DNA of 64,000 nucleotides from Collinsella sp. An307. GTDB taxonomy: Bacteria; Actinomycetota; Coriobacteriia; Coriobacteriales; Coriobacteriaceae. The DNA lies in the NCBI RefSeq assembly GCF_002161805.1, contig NZ_NFIP01000001.1, positions 1 through 64,000 of the forward strand. The letters are read 5' to 3'. The position numbers and the translations under genes are program-made. The notes beneath the pieces were generated by a model. That model was not told the DNA's origin. It searched no databases and worked only from the letters and a program-made list of their open reading frames with translations. Position 1 is the first letter of the stretch. The number at the start of each line of letters is the position of its first letter. This document shows, piece after piece, positions 35,408 through 59,851 of the stretch.

Positions 35408-35471
35408 GATCCACGTAGAACATACGATCGATCGATACAATAATCGCGATCGAACTCATGTTCTTACGTGG
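35408..35471. promoter_or_regulatory. GATC-rich palindromic promoter region of the R-M gene
   Basis: CCACGTAGAACAT (35411-35423) is mirrored by ATGTTCTTACGTGG (35458-35471), differing by one inserted base. Four GATC sites occur at 35408, 35426, 35430 and 35448. The core ATACGATCGATCG/CGCGATCGAA is also near-symmetric. TACAAT (35435-35440) could be a -10. CGAACTCATGTTCT (35451-35464) has the GAAC-N4-GTTC form of a LexA site. Confidence 0.6.
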
Positions 35472-35479
35472 TGGTTGCG

Positions 35480-38146
35480 ATGGCCGTTTCTCAAATCGCA
35501 TACGATGAGACCTCAGCGGAATCCATTGCTGCATATGCAAAGCAGCTGGAGGGAAAGACGCTTCGCACTGTTTGCGAGATTGATAGCCTTGCCGATTCCC
35601 ATGTGAGGAAAGGTGCGTTCGGCAACGCCGTCGAGGAGCTGTTCTTCCACTACGATATCAACTCCAAGTCAGCGCCAGATTTTGAAGAAGCGGGCACTGA
35701 GCTCAAGACCACGCCGATAAAGAAGAGGAAGGGTGGTGGCTATTCCGCTAAGGAACGTCTTGTCATCAGCATGATTAACTACATGAAGGTTGTTGATGAG
35801 ACGTGGGAGACAAGTTCGCTCCAAAAGAAGCTGCATAAGATTCTTCTTATTGCCTATCTGTACGATAAAGAGCTCAATCCGGTGGACTACCTCATCAAGC
35901 TGGTCGAGCTGTGGGGAATTCCACCCGAGGACGTTCCGACCTTCAAGAAGGATTGGGATATTGTCGTTAGCAAGATTCGTGCTGGTCACGCGCATGAGCT
36001 CTCAGGGTCGGACACGCTGTATCTGGAAGCGGCAACAAAAGCGTCTTCGGCTAAGGATCGAAGGAAACAGCCATTTTCCTCTGAGCTGGCAAAGCCGAGG
36101 GCTTGGGCGATTAAGCCGTCGTATATGACGGCGACCCTGAATCACATGCTTGACGCTCAGCGTATCGAGCGTCATCGTGGTGAGGACAATCTCGACCTCC
36201 TCAACCTCGTGAAAAAGCGCTTTGAGCCTTATATCGGGCTGACGGAGCTCGAGCTCGCCGACGTCTGTGGCTATGATTTCCGCGGCAAGCGGAAACCCAA
36301 GAATCTCTGCGCGCTCATCACCCGCTCGATTCTTGGTGTTCAAGAGGGTTCAAAGATTGCAGAGTTTGAAAAGGCGGGAATCAAGCCTAAAACGCTGCGG
36401 CTCAAATGCGACGGAGTGCCCAAGGAATCGCTTTCCTTTCCTGCATTCGACTATCGCATCTTGGCAGACACGCCCTTTGCCGAGAGCGATTTCTACGAAC
36501 AACTGCACCAGAAATACCTCTTCGTAATATTCCGAGAACGAAAAAGCGAACGAGGCGTGTATCGCTTGGCAGAGGTGCTTTTCTGGCAGATGCCAGATCG
36601 TGATCTTCTGGAGGCGCGCCGTTGTTACGAGGAGATGCAGCGTCGTGTGCGCAGCGGCCATGCGGATCGATCGGTAAAGTCGACCGAGAACCGTTGTTGC
36701 CATGTTCGTCCGCATGGAAGAAATAAACAGGACGTTCTACCAACGCCCTATGGATCCTTCGAAACGAAAAAGTGTTTTTGGATCAATGCGCGCTATATCG
36801 GCGAGGAGATCGATAGAGTAAAGCGGGAACTTTTTGCCTCGACGTCGCAAGCGCTCGAGGAAAGAATCGAACGGAGAAACGTGTCGGGACATATTATTCG
36901 CGTAGCAGAACTGTTTGCCGGTGTGGGCGGGTTTCGCCTTGGCCTCGAGGGCTATGAGAACAAGGAGCATCCGGAATTCGCCATGCCTTCCGCAGGTCCT
37001 TTTGTGACGGTCTGGGCTAACCAATGGGAGCCGCCGGGATCGCCGGTGAAGCAGTTTGCTGCCCGGTGCTATGAGGCAAGGTTTGGCTACGGGTCGGTGG
37101 TGAACGAGGACGTTCATCTCGTGCTCGACGAATACGAAGCGGGCAAGATCGATATCCCCGATGTCGATATGGTTGTCGGCGGTTTCCCCTGCCAGGACTA
37201 TTCGGTGGCAAAACCGCTTTCCCAGTCGAATGGTATCGAGGGCAAGAAAGGCGTTCTCTGGTGGGATATCTACCGGTTCCTTCAGCTTAAGAATCGGCCA
37301 CGTTTCGTTCTGCTTGAGAACGTTGACCGTCTGCTGAAGAGCCCCGTTGGCCAGCGTGGCCGCGATTTCGCAATCATTCTATCCTGCTTTGCATCTCTCG
37401 GCTACGCGGTCGAGTGGCGAGTTATCAACGGTGCGGATTACGGCTTCCCGCAGAAGCGGCGCCGTGTATACATTTTTGCCGAGAGAACGGATGAGGGCTG
37501 GAACCTTGAGGAGCGCCTGTCTGACGGTGTGATGGCTGACGCATTCCCTGCGGAAGTGGTCGGTGGTGTGAATCGTCTCACGCTCCTTTCTGACCCGTAT
37601 GAGAATTCGGAGCGCTTTGGCGCGGGGGCGAAGAAGTCACCGTTCTTGCGCGCCGGCGTAATGCAGAGCGGGGTGGTGGCGACCGCTGAAATCTCGCCGC
37701 GCTACGATGGCGACATGAAGGTGCTCGGGGACGTGCTTGTTTCTGACCAAGAGGTTCCAGACGACTTCTATGTTGAAGACGAAAAGCTAGACAAGTGGCG
37801 CTATTTCAAGGGTGGAAAGAGCGAGCCGCGCACCAACAAGAAGACCGGCTATACCTATACCTATTCGGAAGGTGCCATGGCGTTCCCGGATCCGGTGGAC
37901 GCGCCGGCACGTACCATCCTCACAAGTGAGGGGGGGGGGTCAGCTTCCCGGAGCAAACATATCGTACAAGCCGGCGATGGCAGGTATCGGCGCCTGGTCC
38001 CCGACGAGCTCGATCAGCTGCAGGGTTTCCCGAAGGGCTGGACGGACACCGGCATGTCGGATGTTCGCCGTGCGTTCTGCATGGGTAACGCGCTGATTGT
38101 CGGTATCCCGCATCGCATCGGTGAGGCGATAGCGAAACGGCTGTAG
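35480..38146 (+). CDS. Single-chain restriction-modification enzyme: Sau3AI-like endonuclease fused to DNA cytosine-C5 methyltransferase
   Basis: An 888-residue fusion. Residues 1 to about 465 match the whole length of Sau3AI. The MutH-like N-domain has catalytic D67, E74 and K76 in SAPDFEEAGTELKTT, and the second half contains CHVRPHGRNKQD and FWINARYIGEEID. Residues about 470-888 are a complete C5 methyltransferase: motif I VAELFAGVGGFRLGL, motif IV VGGFPCQDYSVAKP with the catalytic Cys, motif VI LLENVDRLL, motif VIII FPQKRRRVYIF, motif IX ARTILTSEGGG and motif X GNALIVGIPHRIGEAI. Sau3AI cuts before GATC and its partner methylates C in GATC; the same specificity is inferred. Base composition is near 50% GC, well below neighbours. 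The start ATG at 35480 is used because the earlier GTG codons overlap the promoter palindrome. A G10 tract lies in motif IX. Confidence 0.93.
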   Translation: MAVSQIAYDETSAESIAAYAKQLEGKTLRTVCEIDSLADSHVRKGAFGNAVEELFFHYDINSKSAPDFEEAGTELKTTPIKKRKGGGYSAKERLVISMINYMKVVDETWETSSLQKKLHKILLIAYLYDKELNPVDYLIKLVELWGIPPEDVPTFKKDWDIVVSKIRAGHAHELSGSDTLYLEAATKASSAKDRRKQPFSSELAKPRAWAIKPSYMTATLNHMLDAQRIERHRGEDNLDLLNLVKKRFEPYIGLTELELADVCGYDFRGKRKPKNLCALITRSILGVQEGSKIAEFEKAGIKPKTLRLKCDGVPKESLSFPAFDYRILADTPFAESDFYEQLHQKYLFVIFRERKSERGVYRLAEVLFWQMPDRDLLEARRCYEEMQRRVRSGHADRSVKSTENRCCHVRPHGRNKQDVLPTPYGSFETKKCFWINARYIGEEIDRVKRELFASTSQALEERIERRNVSGHIIRVAELFAGVGGFRLGLEGYENKEHPEFAMPSAGPFVTVWANQWEPPGSPVKQFAARCYEARFGYGSVVNEDVHLVLDEYEAGKIDIPDVDMVVGGFPCQDYSVAKPLSQSNGIEGKKGVLWWDIYRFLQLKNRPRFVLLENVDRLLKSPVGQRGRDFAIILSCFASLGYAVEWRVINGADYGFPQKRRRVYIFAERTDEGWNLEERLSDGVMADAFPAEVVGGVNRLTLLSDPYENSERFGAGAKKSPFLRAGVMQSGVVATAEISPRYDGDMKVLGDVLVSDQEVPDDFYVEDEKLDKWRYFKGGKSEPRTNKKTGYTYTYSEGAMAFPDPVDAPARTILTSEGGGSASRSKHIVQAGDGRYRRLVPDELDQLQGFPKGWTDTGMSDVRRAFCMGNALIVGIPHRIGEAIAKRL
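37930..37939 (+). repeat. G10 homopolymer inside the methyltransferase part
   Basis: Ten consecutive G residues encode the end of Glu and three Gly codons in SEGGGSASR (motif IX). The tract is in frame here. Tracts of this length commonly slip during replication. Confidence 0.85.
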
Positions 38147-56198: not shown

Positions 56199-56320
56199 GT
56201 TTCCTCCTCCTCTCAAAGGCGCAGGCCCGTCAAACGTCAGACGCCCTAGACAACAATGGGCGTCCGACGCCCCGGTGAGACCCCGCGCTGCGTAGGGACG
56301 CGTTGGGGTATACTCGGTAC

Positions 56321-56407
56321 GAGCAGAAGGTTTAAAGCCCTCCTGCGGTAAGGTGATAGGCGGGGAAGCCCGCGCCGAACAGCCGTCTCCGCATAAGGCG
56401 GCTGTTC
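56321..56407. ncRNA. Three-hairpin structured region, candidate small RNA or leader
   Basis: Hairpin A: GCAGAAGG with CCTCCTGC (56323-56346). Hairpin B: GCGGG-GAAG-CCCGC (56360-56373). Hairpin C: GAACAGCCG with CGGCTGTTC (56377-56407). On the plus strand a TATACT box (56309-56314) lies just upstream. On the minus strand this is the space between the peptide gene and the helicase. It matches no RNA family I know (SRP, tmRNA and 6S were considered). Strand is undecided. Confidence 0.4.
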
Positions 56408-56440
56408 CCATTTACGCGGCTTCACCCGTCGGTTAGTGTC

Positions 56441-56524
56441 TTATCCGATCAACAGAATCAGGATAATCACCAGTGCGAGCAGTATGGCTGCGGCGCACAG
56501 GAGACGAGTTAAAGCTGCGAGCAT
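56441..56524 (-). CDS. 27-residue hydrophobic peptide with LexA-like promoter
   Basis: The ATG at 56524 opens a 27-codon frame ending in TAA at 56441: MLAALTRLLCAAAILLALV followed by IILILLIG. It is one hydrophobic transmembrane segment with a single Arg and a single Cys. An excellent ribosome-binding stretch (GAGAGGGAAGGGA) lies 4-12 bases upstream. About 50 bases of leader separate it from a TGG-TATACT extended -10, itself 9 bases from the site CGAACGTTAGTTCT. Length, hydrophobicity and damage-type promoter recall TisB-like toxins, although sequence identity is not implied. Alternatively it is a small regulatory membrane peptide for the neighbouring ATPase or helicase. Confidence 0.65.
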   Translation of the reverse strand: MLAALTRLLCAAAILLALVIILILLIG

Positions 56525-56581
56525 AGGATCCCTTCCCTCTCCCTGCGAGACTCGGAGGGCACCGCCCGCTCGATACGCTAT

Positions 56582-56610
56582 AGTATACCACAGAATAGAA
56601 CTAACGTTCG
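56582..56610 (-). promoter_or_regulatory. Promoter with LexA-like site for the 27-residue peptide
   Basis: Minus strand: CGAACGTTAGTTCT (56610-56597), 9 bases, then TATACT (56587-56582) with TGG before it. The GAAC-N4-GTTC core is an exact match to the palindromic SOS box core of Gram-positive bacteria. Repressor bound here would cover the -35 region. Upstream at 56635-56644 is ATCCAGCA, also found upstream of the TerB promoter. Confidence 0.65.
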
Positions 56611-56659: not shown

Positions 56660-58030
56660 CTACAGCGTGAACTCGGCAAACGCCGACGCGTCGCGTACGG
56701 GAGAGCCTGGCGCGACCGAGGTGCCTGCTGTCGGCGCCGGAGCGCCGAGTGCGCTTGCGCCGGTACCTTCGCCCTCGTTGGGATCGCGGTCGGTTACTGC
56801 GCTGCCGCCGACCTCGCGCAGCAGATCGTCGACGGTGAGCTTGGGGTTTTGGTAGGCGATGTCAAGCAGCTCGATGAAGTCGCGGATGACCTCGCGCGGG
56901 GTGAGGTGCGTATCCGCTCCCACGCGGCCGAACTCAATCTTGAGGAAGTCAACGAGATTCTGCTCAGTGAGGCGCGGCTCGTACCCAAAGTATCCCGCAT
57001 GAATCTGCTGGAGTTTCTCGATGAGGACGAGCAGCTCCTCGTAGGTGAGCGGATGCAGGTTGATGATGGGGGCGAGCATGTCGCGCATGTCCTCGCGGGC
57101 GAAGCGGCCCTGCGTGAGGCGTGAACGGAGCGCCTCGTAGGAGAAGACGCCGCGCCGCCGGTCCTCGATGGACTGCGGCGTCCCGCCCATGATGACGCCC
57201 AGGTGGTGCGCCTTGCCCTGGAGGGTGTCGTTATACATCGTGAGGATCTTCTCGTAGTTGTACTGGCGCGTGACGGTGTTGGGAATCTTGAAGAGATTCA
57301 CGAGCTCGTCGATGAGGACGAGGAGCCCCTTGTAGCCTGCGCCCACAAGGAACTGCGCAAAGAGCTTGATGTAGTCGTACCAGTCATCATCGGTGATGAT
57401 CGTAGTCGTGCCGAGCTCCGTGCGCGCCTCACTCTTGGTGCGGTATTCGCCGCGCAGCCACTTGATGACGCAGCTTTTGGTCTCGTCGTCCCCCTCGAGC
57501 GATGCCGCGCGATAGCGACGGAGCATGCGCGTGAAGTCGAAGCCGTGGACGAGCTCCTCGAGGGGCGCCATCTGGGCAGCGAGGGTGTCCTCACCGGTGG
57601 CATCATCGCCCGTTGCCGCCACCCAGCGGTCGAGGACGAGTGTTAGCGCACCACCCTCCGGGCGCGTTTTGGTGGAGAGGTTGCGGATGAGTTCTCGGTA
57701 GGTGGCAAGACCCTGACCCTGTCCGCCCTGCAGGCGGCGCTCAGGGGAGAGGTCCGCGTCCGCCACGACGAAGTTCTCGCCCATGGCGTGGGTGCGGATG
57801 GTCTGCAGAAGGAAGCTCTTGCCCGCGCCGTAGCGGCCCACGAGGAAGCGGAAGGACGCGCCGCCGTCCGCGATGAGGGCGAGGTCGGTCAGAAGTGCCC
57901 GAATCTCGACCTCGCGCCCCACGGTGATGTAGGGGAGACCTATGCGCGGCACGACGCCGCCCTTGAGCGAGTTCAGGATGACAGCGGCGACGCGCTTAGG
58001 AACGCGCGGTACAGATGCGGTATCGGTCAT
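56660..58030 (-). CDS. BrxD-like ATP-binding protein (DUF2791)
   Basis: A 456-residue P-loop ATPase of the DUF2791/BREX ATP-binding family. It has Walker A FLVGRYGAGKSFLL (K71) and Walker B GLLVLIDELVNLFK (D241, E242). A sensor region follows (LGVIMGGTPQSIEDRRRGVFSYEALRSRL). A helical C-terminal part (YEELLVLIEKLQQIHAGYFGY, THLTPREVIRDFIELLDIA) precedes a disordered tail of about 50 Gly/Ala/Pro residues. BrxD proteins pair with BrxHI helicases in BREX type 2 loci, and the helicase gene lies 460 bases downstream. The start overlaps the stop of the TerB gene by four bases, so both are made together. No PglZ, PglX or BrxC is present, so this is not a complete BREX system. Confidence 0.88.
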   Translation of the reverse strand: MTDTASVPRVPKRVAAVILNSLKGGVVPRIGLPYITVGREVEIRALLTDLALIADGGASFRFLVGRYGAGKSFLLQTIRTHAMGENFVVADADLSPERRLQGGQGQGLATYRELIRNLSTKTRPEGGALTLVLDRWVAATGDDATGEDTLAAQMAPLEELVHGFDFTRMLRRYRAASLEGDDETKSCVIKWLRGEYRTKSEARTELGTTTIITDDDWYDYIKLFAQFLVGAGYKGLLVLIDELVNLFKIPNTVTRQYNYEKILTMYNDTLQGKAHHLGVIMGGTPQSIEDRRRGVFSYEALRSRLTQGRFAREDMRDMLAPIINLHPLTYEELLVLIEKLQQIHAGYFGYEPRLTEQNLVDFLKIEFGRVGADTHLTPREVIRDFIELLDIAYQNPKLTVDDLLREVGGSAVTDRDPNEGEGTGASALGAPAPTAGTSVAPGSPVRDASAFAEFTL

Positions 58031-59784
58031 GATGCAATCAGCTCCCGTATGTCGTCACGGTAGTCGTCTATGATGCACGGGCCTGTGACGCCAAATTCGA
58101 TGGCGGTGTCGCCGAGCAGGTCGAAGAGCTTCTCGTTGATGGTGTCCACCAGCAGGTCTTCAGAGATGCCGTCAGGTGTTGTTGCAGCCCGTCCGTCCAG
58201 AAGGGCGGTAACGTATGCCACTTCCTCAGGCGTGAGCAGCCCTCCTGATGGCGTCTGCACCATTGTTGGCTGAGTGGGCGCACCAGAGGGCGAGGCGAGC
58301 TCTTCCTCTGCGAGTTCCGCACGAACGGGAGGCGCCAGTGGCGCCTCCCGCAGAGCAGGACTGCTCGAAGCGGAGGGGGAGCCCGCAGCCCCCTCTTCCC
58401 GCTCCTCGTCGATGAGCAGCGCTTCTCGAGTTTCTGCCGCAGCGCTGCGGATGCCCGAGAGCTTGGAGAGGTCGATGTCTATGACGCGCGGTGCGGAAGT
58501 TTCCTTCCAGGTAAGCCACGTCTCTATCTCACGATCGATGATTTTCGCAAGATACTTGGGGCACTTGGCATCTTTGAGCTGTGGTTCGAAGGAAAGCGCC
58601 TCGCGCAGGCGGAAGTCGCAGGCACGAGCGATCTTGCCCCAGGCTTTGCTGCGCCCCTGGCCGCCGTAGATGCGTCGGCAGGTCCAAAGACCGCGACGGC
58701 AGCGGTAGCGGTGAATGGGGTCGAGCTCGTACTCGGCGTCTGCATGAGGGTGCTCCTCAAAGAAGACGGCGGAACCGAACATGGTATAGCCCATCTCGGC
58801 CTCCTCCCCAAACGAGCTTTCCACCAAACCGTGCGTACGGTTCTTTCGATAGTAGGCGAGCATGCGGACAAAGACCGCAGACGCCACATGGCGCAGGTCG
58901 TCAGGGTGCTCGTGGAAAAGGCTCGAGGCGCTCAGACGGTAGGAGGAGTGCAGGTCAATGGCCTCAAAGAGGCGCTGCTCTGTTGTCTCATCCGGTGGCA
59001 GGGGGAGAGCGGGCGCCTGGGTGCGGCGCGCCGACTTCCCGCCACCGGTTACAGTGCTGGATGCCGCTTTCTGCGGCAAGGCGGCATCTGCGAGCGGCAC
59101 GTCCTCACCCAACCAATCGATAAGCGCCGGGTCAAAAGGCGCGAAGGCGCGCGCGATGGCGATGAGCTCGAGATCGAGCTTGCGGACAGGATCGTCGGAC
59201 AGAAGCTCCGGGTCGAGCGCGTGGTAGATCACATAGTCATGGAGCCAGGCGCGCACGTTGCGGTCGATATCGGGGGCGAAGGCGCGAAAGTTCTCCCAGA
59301 AGGAGCGAATCTTGTGGTAGCCGTCGAGCGGGTTCTCGGCGCCGATACCGTTGATGAGCTCGTACAAGTAGACATAGGCAAACGACTTGGGTGCCTCGGC
59401 CACCTCGCCGCGGCGCACGGCAGCGCGCCAGGTGAAGTACCCCCGCAGCTGGCGGTCGCTCATATCGTTGTAGGTGGGGTAGTAGGAGGTGAAGCTCCCG
59501 TGGTAGGGGCAGTCGTCCTCAAAGTCCTCCATAAAGCGAGCCTGCCGGTAGAACAGCTCGGCCTCAGACAGCCAGCGGCCCCGCGACTCGGGCGAGCGCT
59601 CCTGCCAGCGCGAGATGCCGCGCATCTGGCGGTAGCGGTCGGGCAGGTAGCTCGCCATCTGGCGGCCGGTCCGCACGATGGGCTCGTCCTTATAGACGCT
59701 CTTTGAGAAATGGGAGCTCTGGCGCAGGCGCTCGTTAGCGTTGAGCCGTGCGATGAGCTCGTGAATATCGATGTCTGCCGTCAT
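58027..59784 (-). CDS. TerB_N / TerB_C domain protein of the ATPase-helicase module
   Basis: A 585-residue protein. Residues about 60-260 match the TerB_N domain, with GSFTSYYPTYNDMSDRQLRGYFTWRAAVRRGEV and YLYELINGIGAENPLDGYHKI as its hallmark. Residues about 280-450 and the end (EEVAYVTALLDGRAATTPDGISEDLLVDTINEKLFDLLGDTAIEF) fit TerB_C. A Pro/Ala/Ser linker (about 455-510) includes residues 470-493 that derive from a palindromic repeat inserted in frame. TerB-domain proteins are tied to tellurite and phage/stress systems; the TerB_N-ATPase-helicase combination is thought to be DNA-directed. The ATG at 59784 has GGGAGG upstream; an earlier ATG at 59802 would place that site inside the gene. 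The promoter carries a LexA-like site. Confidence 0.85.
   Translation of the reverse strand: MTADIDIHELIARLNANERLRQSSHFSKSVYKDEPIVRTGRQMASYLPDRYRQMRGISRWQERSPESRGRWLSEAELFYRQARFMEDFEDDCPYHGSFTSYYPTYNDMSDRQLRGYFTWRAAVRRGEVAEAPKSFAYVYLYELINGIGAENPLDGYHKIRSFWENFRAFAPDIDRNVRAWLHDYVIYHALDPELLSDDPVRKLDLELIAIARAFAPFDPALIDWLGEDVPLADAALPQKAASSTVTGGGKSARRTQAPALPLPPDETTEQRLFEAIDLHSSYRLSASSLFHEHPDDLRHVASAVFVRMLAYYRKNRTHGLVESSFGEEAEMGYTMFGSAVFFEEHPHADAEYELDPIHRYRCRRGLWTCRRIYGGQGRSKAWGKIARACDFRLREALSFEPQLKDAKCPKYLAKIIDREIETWLTWKETSAPRVIDIDLSKLSGIRSAAAETREALLIDEEREEGAAGSPSASSSPALREAPLAPPVRAELAEEELASPSGAPTQPTMVQTPSGGLLTPEEVAYVTALLDGRAATTPDGISEDLLVDTINEKLFDLLGDTAIEFGVTGPCIIDDYRDDIRELIAS
58305..58373 (-). repeat. 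70-bp palindromic repeat inserted within the TerB coding sequence
   Basis: Minus strand from CCGCTTCGAGCAGTCCTG through GGAGGCGCC-ACT-GGCGCCTCC to TCGTGCGGAACTCGCAGA. It is about 85% identical to 10370-10440 (plus). It encodes the linker stretch PSASSSPALREAPLAPPVRA. Confidence 0.85.
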
Positions 59785-59822
59785 GTCCCACCTCCCGTTC
59801 ATCTGCTACGTGGAATCTCTCT

Positions 59823-59851
59823 ATCATACCACAGAGACAAACAGGTGTTCG
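59823..59851 (-). promoter_or_regulatory. Promoter with LexA-like site for the TerB-DUF2791 operon
   Basis: Minus strand: CGAACACCTGTTTG (59851-59838), 9 bases, then TATGAT (59828-59823) with TGG before it. One base differs from the GAAC-N4-GTTC core. Spacing and the CTGTGGTAT block are the same as at 56582-56610. ATCCAGCA lies upstream. Confidence 0.6.

Follow-up and report, generated by a model that had tools for sequence, protein, structure and literature searches.

A candidate SOS-controlled type I toxin-antitoxin cassette in Collinsella and its relatives

The first 64,000 nucleotides of contig NZ_NFIP01000001.1 of Collinsella sp. An307 (assembly GCF_002161805.1; this whole stretch is the window below) contain, between genes for an ATPase and a helicase, an open reading frame (ORF) of 27 codons. 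A preliminary description, made from the letters of the DNA, had likened its product to TisB, a membrane peptide induced in the SOS response, and had supposed that gene callers overlook it. Is this ORF a gene and, if so, to what kind of system does it belong? The comparison of related loci reported here indicates that it is a real gene and lends independent support to the likeness with TisB. We read the surrounding cassette, with a probability of about 0.78, as a chromosomal SOS-controlled type I toxin-antitoxin (TA) module that would act in the manner of TisB/IstR-1 or DinQ/AgrB and is laid out like Fst/RNAII. Its parts, in window coordinates, are the following.

56441 to 56524, minus strand: ORF for a 27-residue, single-helix membrane peptide, MLAALTRLLCAAAILLALVIILILLIG, a candidate SOS-induced toxin; 36 intact relatives with codon-level selection
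56537-56530, minus strand: Shine-Dalgarno (SD) sequence GGGAAGGG, five bases 5′ of the ATG
56549 to 56569, minus strand: conserved 5′ leader element GCGGGCGGTGCCCTCCGAGTC, including an anti-SD CCCTCC (56559-56554), with predicted pairing to the SD
56582 to 56587, minus strand: −10 element TATACT of the peptide promoter, its position kept in relatives
56597 to 56610, minus strand: LexA (SOS) box CGAACGTTAGTTCT, of the type that the genus has at lexA and recA; ranked third among the sites of the window
56309 to 56314, plus strand: −10 element TATACT of the small RNA (sRNA) promoter
56321 to 56412, plus strand: convergent structured sRNA, a candidate antitoxin, with hairpin 1 (containing CCCUCCUG), hairpin 2 and a terminator hairpin; transcript ends inferred
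56377 to 56409, both strands: bidirectional terminator hairpin common to the peptide mRNA and the sRNA

Coding constraint and SOS promoter of the peptide

The ORF begins with ATG at 56524 and runs to 56441 on the minus strand, and its product is hydrophobic. Nine ORFs of 20–40 residues in the 64 kb are preceded by an SD-like site; of these, it alone contains a strong transmembrane stretch. To find relatives, we searched the genus with 461 bases of DNA, which recovered this locus from two genomes, and divergent copies from elsewhere; searched 67 genomes of the family Coriobacteriaceae with the leader motif GCRGGCGGYGCCCTCCGAGTC and read the retrieved loci; and extended the set over the order and class with an sRNA model (R1). 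This model served as a detector only, its RNAalifold structure being distorted by promoter columns, and sRNA structure was counted separately. The searches yielded 36 intact full cassettes, 32 of them from 21 of the 67 Coriobacteriaceae genomes and the other four from a second family of the order that is probably Atopobiaceae. All evidence presented here is comparative sequence, and the copies are related by descent, so that counts are not numbers of independent events. Across 398 genomes of 153 genera, sampled over the class, the sRNA is confined to these two families, and an independent scan of 84,980 genomes for the leader and SD returned 24 stretches, all from Coriobacteriaceae (Collinsella, Enorma and uncultured relatives).

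Each of the 36 cassettes has a LexA box, leader, SD, peptide and convergent sRNA. The order is LexA core, −10, leader motif, GGAGGG, start codon, peptide and terminator hairpin, with the sRNA on the opposite strand; the start codon lies 45–48 bases past the start of the leader motif. The SD is GGAGGG in nearly all relatives, from which the window copy deviates slightly. The peptides are 25–33 residues long and resemble MxKLTxLLLAAAxLxAxxxxLxL; every one contains a single hydrophobic stretch, and nearly all have Lys or Arg close to the start. A divergent cassette (L180, G011:C3) has the peptide MDKLIVLLLTAALLVVSIVVFIVIR and an sRNA and is without a recognisable LexA box.

The preliminary description had named frameshifts in related strains as the observation that would speak against its hydrophobic 27-residue ORF with an SD, and codon-level conservation in related loci as a check. 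The frame is open in all 36 intact cassettes. Substitutions in the ORF are distributed 82:28:107 over codon positions 1:2:3, with a pooled ratio of nonsynonymous to synonymous differences (pN/pS) of 0.41 in disjoint near pairs; depletion at position 2 is what the preservation of hydrophobicity demands. Both the ORF and its ribosome-binding site thus hold up, and comparative loci can make a strong gene call out of a mere 27 codons.

The proposed LexA-like promoter also stood. We built a LexA weight matrix solely from the promoter sites of the genus's own lexA, which has three boxes of the form GAAC-N4-GTTC or near it, and recA, which has one (nine genomes). Ranked by this matrix over the window, the peptide box at 56597 comes third, after a box upstream of the neighbouring gene sngA (first) and one near an ORF at 35468 (second). 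The peptide promoter accordingly carries a LexA box of the host's own type, as a member of the SOS regulon should. The LexA core matches at 7–8 of 8 positions in all cassettes and lies at −38 to −41 or at −50/−51 from the leader motif, two positions that are one DNA turn apart.

Convergent sRNA, shared terminator and leader

Two elements had been overlooked in the preliminary description, the sRNA and the leader predicted to lock the SD. A structured convergent sRNA, about 92 nt long and with its own −10 TATACT, lies in all 36 intact cassettes. In its three hairpins 94% of cells are paired, as against 39–51% when the structure is slid, and seven pairs show compensatory change, with 17 such cells; none of 500 shuffles reaches either value. 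The window copy folds with a z score of −3.1. No LexA box is present in the sRNA promoter. Overlapping the sRNA −10 is a conserved inverted repeat, CGAGTATACCCC ... GGGTATGCTCGG, around a GC hairpin (for example at loci L004, L005 and L061); the repeat is weak in the window (56265-56314, upstream of the sRNA promoter) and might serve as an operator or a divergent promoter. At L007/L009 (G007:C29) and L005 (G005:C2) the peptide cassette is flanked by further tandem copies of the sRNA, like agrA/agrB at dinQ.

The 3′ ends of mRNA and sRNA are fully complementary through the shared terminator, and sRNA hairpin 1 bears CCCTCCTG, the same sequence as in the leader. The leader CCCTCC is complementary to the SD GGAGGG, and the predicted probability that the SD is unpaired is near zero in most of 31 leaders; that the leader locks the SD in a hairpin is a well-motivated prediction. 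On sequence, the locus thus combines a gene for a small hydrophobic peptide with an adjacent convergent sRNA gene, the constituents expected of a type I TA system, and its convergent genes, shared bidirectional terminator and predicted sequestration of the SD reproduce the Fst/RNAII type of layout.

The two partners decay unequally. Of 49 strong sRNA matches in the family (E ≤ 1.7e-11), 34 adjoin an intact peptide frame (at two of these, L153 and L156, the LexA-leader part is lost), and at about 15 the peptide is absent or broken. At L041 a deletion destroyed the ORF, yet promoter, LexA box and sRNA are kept; at L152 only the C-terminal end of the peptide remains. No intact peptide without an sRNA occurs among the cassettes found. 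Such one-sided decay, in which the sRNA outlasts the peptide, would be expected of a peptide that does harm when its partner is missing.

We propose that in an undamaged cell LexA would repress the peptide promoter while the sRNA would be made constitutively. Leaky peptide mRNA would be held twice, first by the leader fold, which would place CCCUCC over the SD GGAGGG, and second by the sRNA, which would pair at the fully complementary terminator. Through its CCCUCCUG the sRNA may also pair at the ribosome-binding site and occupy the SD after the leader has opened. Upon DNA damage, cleavage of LexA would let the peptide mRNA exceed the sRNA, and the leader would be opened or processed, as tisB and dinQ suggest. 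Judging from its type, the peptide would then insert in the membrane and lower the membrane potential or halt growth.

Several observations weigh against this proposal. The leader helix is conserved but does not covary, because both of its strands are fixed, and the leader of the window does not fold with unusual stability (single-sequence z −0.73). Relative to composition-matched shuffles, predicted pairing between the 5′ hairpin of the sRNA and the ribosome-binding site has a mean z of about −1 (−1.7 to −3.3 for window-type loci and L007); since it does not exceed controls on average, the shared terminator is the only place of guaranteed complementarity. The LexA box of the window has one weak inner position and the lowest score among the cassette boxes (14.0). 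None of 31 cassette peptides matches a known toxin family in Pfam at E ≤ 1. Finally, what the comparison of loci shows is the arrangement of the DNA and its conservation, the coding constraint, the sRNA structure and the unequal decay of the two partners, whereas transcription, translation, toxicity, the action of the sRNA and the processing of the leader are inferred.

Alternative readings and the Shango neighbourhood

The strongest competitor, though an unlikely one, holds that the peptide does not damage the membrane as a toxin would but is induced in the SOS response to regulate a membrane target, and that the sRNA merely tunes its level. Caulobacter SidA, a small SOS-controlled cell-division inhibitor with a single helix, is a precedent. 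Size, SOS control and the single helix suit such a regulator equally well, and some helix positions are conserved (KLTxLLLAAA), as they would be in a protein-protein interface. Multi-copy cassettes with divergent peptides, orphan sRNAs left by decay and a locked leader are, however, usual for TA modules.

Two further alternatives hinge on the neighbouring genes. The preliminary description had placed the peptide between an ATPase and a helicase of a putative defence module, and these flanking genes match, by profile, components of Shango (SngABC), a three-gene anti-phage system (PMC10250203).

53769 to 56198, minus strand: sngC, Shango DEAD/DEAH helicase, flanking gene
56660 to 58030, minus strand: sngB, Shango ATPase (BrxC/BrxD family), flanking gene
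58027 to 59802, minus strand: sngA, Shango TerB-domain protein, flanking gene
59838 to 59851: highest-ranking LexA box of the window, 36 nt upstream of sngA; kept in 20 of 20 relatives

The preliminary description had the neighbours right but had missed that the cassette usually lies away from Shango; what the comparison corrects is the link of the peptide to the defence system. A reading in which the peptide would be a fourth component of the Shango operon, for instance a suicide arm, could appeal to the position between sngB and sngC here, to the cassettes directly upstream of sngC in six further genomes and to the LexA boxes of Shango itself. Its distribution makes it improbable. SngC-like proteins occur in 66 of the 67 family genomes and SngB-like proteins in 64, most Shango loci have no cassette, and about 25 of the 32 family cassettes lie elsewhere, so that no consistent linkage to sngABC emerges. 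In genome G005 the gap between sngB and sngC measures 11 nt and holds nothing. Because Shango is near-universal and usually without the cassette, and most cassettes are elsewhere, the comparison identifies the cassette as an element inserted between sngB and sngC in a small number of genomes and not as a part of Shango.

More improbable still is a leader peptide or attenuator that controls sngC. In seven genomes (the window and six others) the ORF immediately precedes sngC on its strand, at a position that in other species holds an sngC promoter with a LexA box, but the majority of cassettes lie in other places, and the ORF is followed by a strong terminator and the convergent sRNA; like the reading as a Shango component, it was rejected on distribution. 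An equally poor prospect, a repeated non-coding DNA or RNA element with an incidental ORF, draws on the better conservation of leader and sRNA than of peptide and on the existence of solo sRNAs, and is contradicted by the depletion at codon position 2, the fixed spacing of SD and start codon and the complete lack of frameshifts in the 36 intact cassettes. Searches of phage, plasmid and viral contigs were empty (records near this genome may be excluded from them), which makes a phage lysis peptide or a plasmid addiction module improbable as well.

The neighbourhood bears on the control of Shango. The LexA site upstream of sngA scores 13.5–20.3 in all 20 relatives (L221-L240), as against at most 13.0 in control windows, at distances of −35 to −68 and once −159. 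Among cassette-free sngC genes, 21 of the 34 examined have a LexA box of their own upstream (among L188-L190, L198-L209, L212-L214 and L216-L218). The sngC promoter of G034 is similar to the peptide promoter at sngC of G050, G055 and G056, and a cassette at sngC occupies the place of the sngC SOS promoter in other species. The boxes at sngA and at cassette-free sngC make it appear that Shango belongs to the SOS regulon in Coriobacteriaceae; a literature search found no description of LexA control of Shango. We consider it conceivable, though doubtful, that Shango is a core SOS operon in this family and that, in genomes with the cassette at sngC, one LexA-controlled region switches on the helicase along with a membrane-dormancy peptide; DNA damage by a phage would then set off defence and growth arrest together.

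Further observations concern defence and the SOS regulon more broadly. Defence systems are typically patchy, but Shango is present in nearly all of the 67 family genomes and may have a housekeeping role in DNA repair. Seven cassettes (L040, L051, L056, L060, L061, L063 and L153) adjoin defence-like genes (AAA_21/AbiLi, Mrr_N, Fic, GmrSD, Schlafen AlbA_2 and AbiEii), which were chosen by eye and so do not measure enrichment. The second-best LexA site in the window (35451-35464) lies 17 nt upstream of an 892-residue ORF (35468-38146, plus strand) that, by eye, looks like a fusion of a Sau3AI/MutH-type endonuclease with a DNA cytosine methyltransferase and may thus be a restriction-modification enzyme under SOS control.

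Known systems and significance

Pfam includes a TisB model. The peptide has no significant match in Pfam, PHROGs or NCBIfam, and the 31 cassette peptides showed homology to neither TisB nor Fst/Ldr in Pfam. In nine cassette loci Rfam recognised no family apart from tRNA at its gathering score, hence no RNA antitoxin family, and at permissive thresholds only chance-level matches appeared. A literature search found no SOS-controlled type I system in Actinobacteria/Actinomycetota.

In Escherichia coli, tisB encodes a LexA-controlled inner-membrane peptide of 29 residues with a constitutive sRNA antitoxin and an inhibitory structure in the 5′ untranslated region (PMC8309996). The cassette resembles tisB/istR-1 in LexA control, small membrane peptide, sRNA partner and inhibitory 5′ structure (here predicted), but its peptide lacks sequence similarity to TisB in Pfam, its sRNA is convergent with a shared terminator, and its candidate toxin gene has a strong SD that an anti-SD is predicted to cover. 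The E. coli gene dinQ encodes a LexA-controlled peptide of 27 residues with a single transmembrane segment and has oppositely oriented sRNA genes, multiple sRNA copies and a locked full-length mRNA (PMC3567139), all of which have counterparts in the cassette, the locked mRNA as a prediction. There is no recognised sequence similarity between the two, and whereas the 5′ end of AgrB pairs over about 30 nt with dinQ, perfect complementarity in the cassette is at the terminator only. At both tisB and dinQ, LexA gives control by damage, and translation takes place from processed mRNA only (PMC8309996, PMC3567139). With Fst/RNAII (par of pAD1) the cassette shares convergent toxin mRNA and sRNA, a bidirectional terminator and an SD within a 5′ stem-loop, the last of these predicted for the cassette; in Fst/RNAII the two RNAs first meet at the terminator loop, and the SD is sequestered by an intramolecular stem (PMC7472228). 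The cassette differs in having no Fst/Ldr match in Pfam and no clear direct repeats, and it is LexA-boxed, whereas that review does not describe Fst loci as SOS-controlled. Shango, as a three-gene system (PMC10250203), matches the flanking genes by profile and leaves the peptide outside.

By analogy, the cassette suggests a combination of the tisB/dinQ and Fst/RNAII designs. Type I TA systems as a kind are already known; the peptide and sRNA family and the joining of SOS control to a convergent layout appear to be new. TisB and DinQ, the SOS-induced type I toxins that we found in the literature, both come from E. coli. In Collinsella and its relatives, which are dominant gut commensals, a peptide family apparently unrelated to them would follow the same control logic in the layout of a Gram-positive plasmid addiction module. 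Recurrence of the cassette across an order of gut bacteria suggests an undescribed TisB/DinQ-like answer to DNA damage, by dormancy or self-poisoning. If the peptide depolarises cells, this would speak for a convergent evolution of damage-triggered dormancy and provide a route to antibiotic tolerance among gut Actinomycetota that experiments can test.
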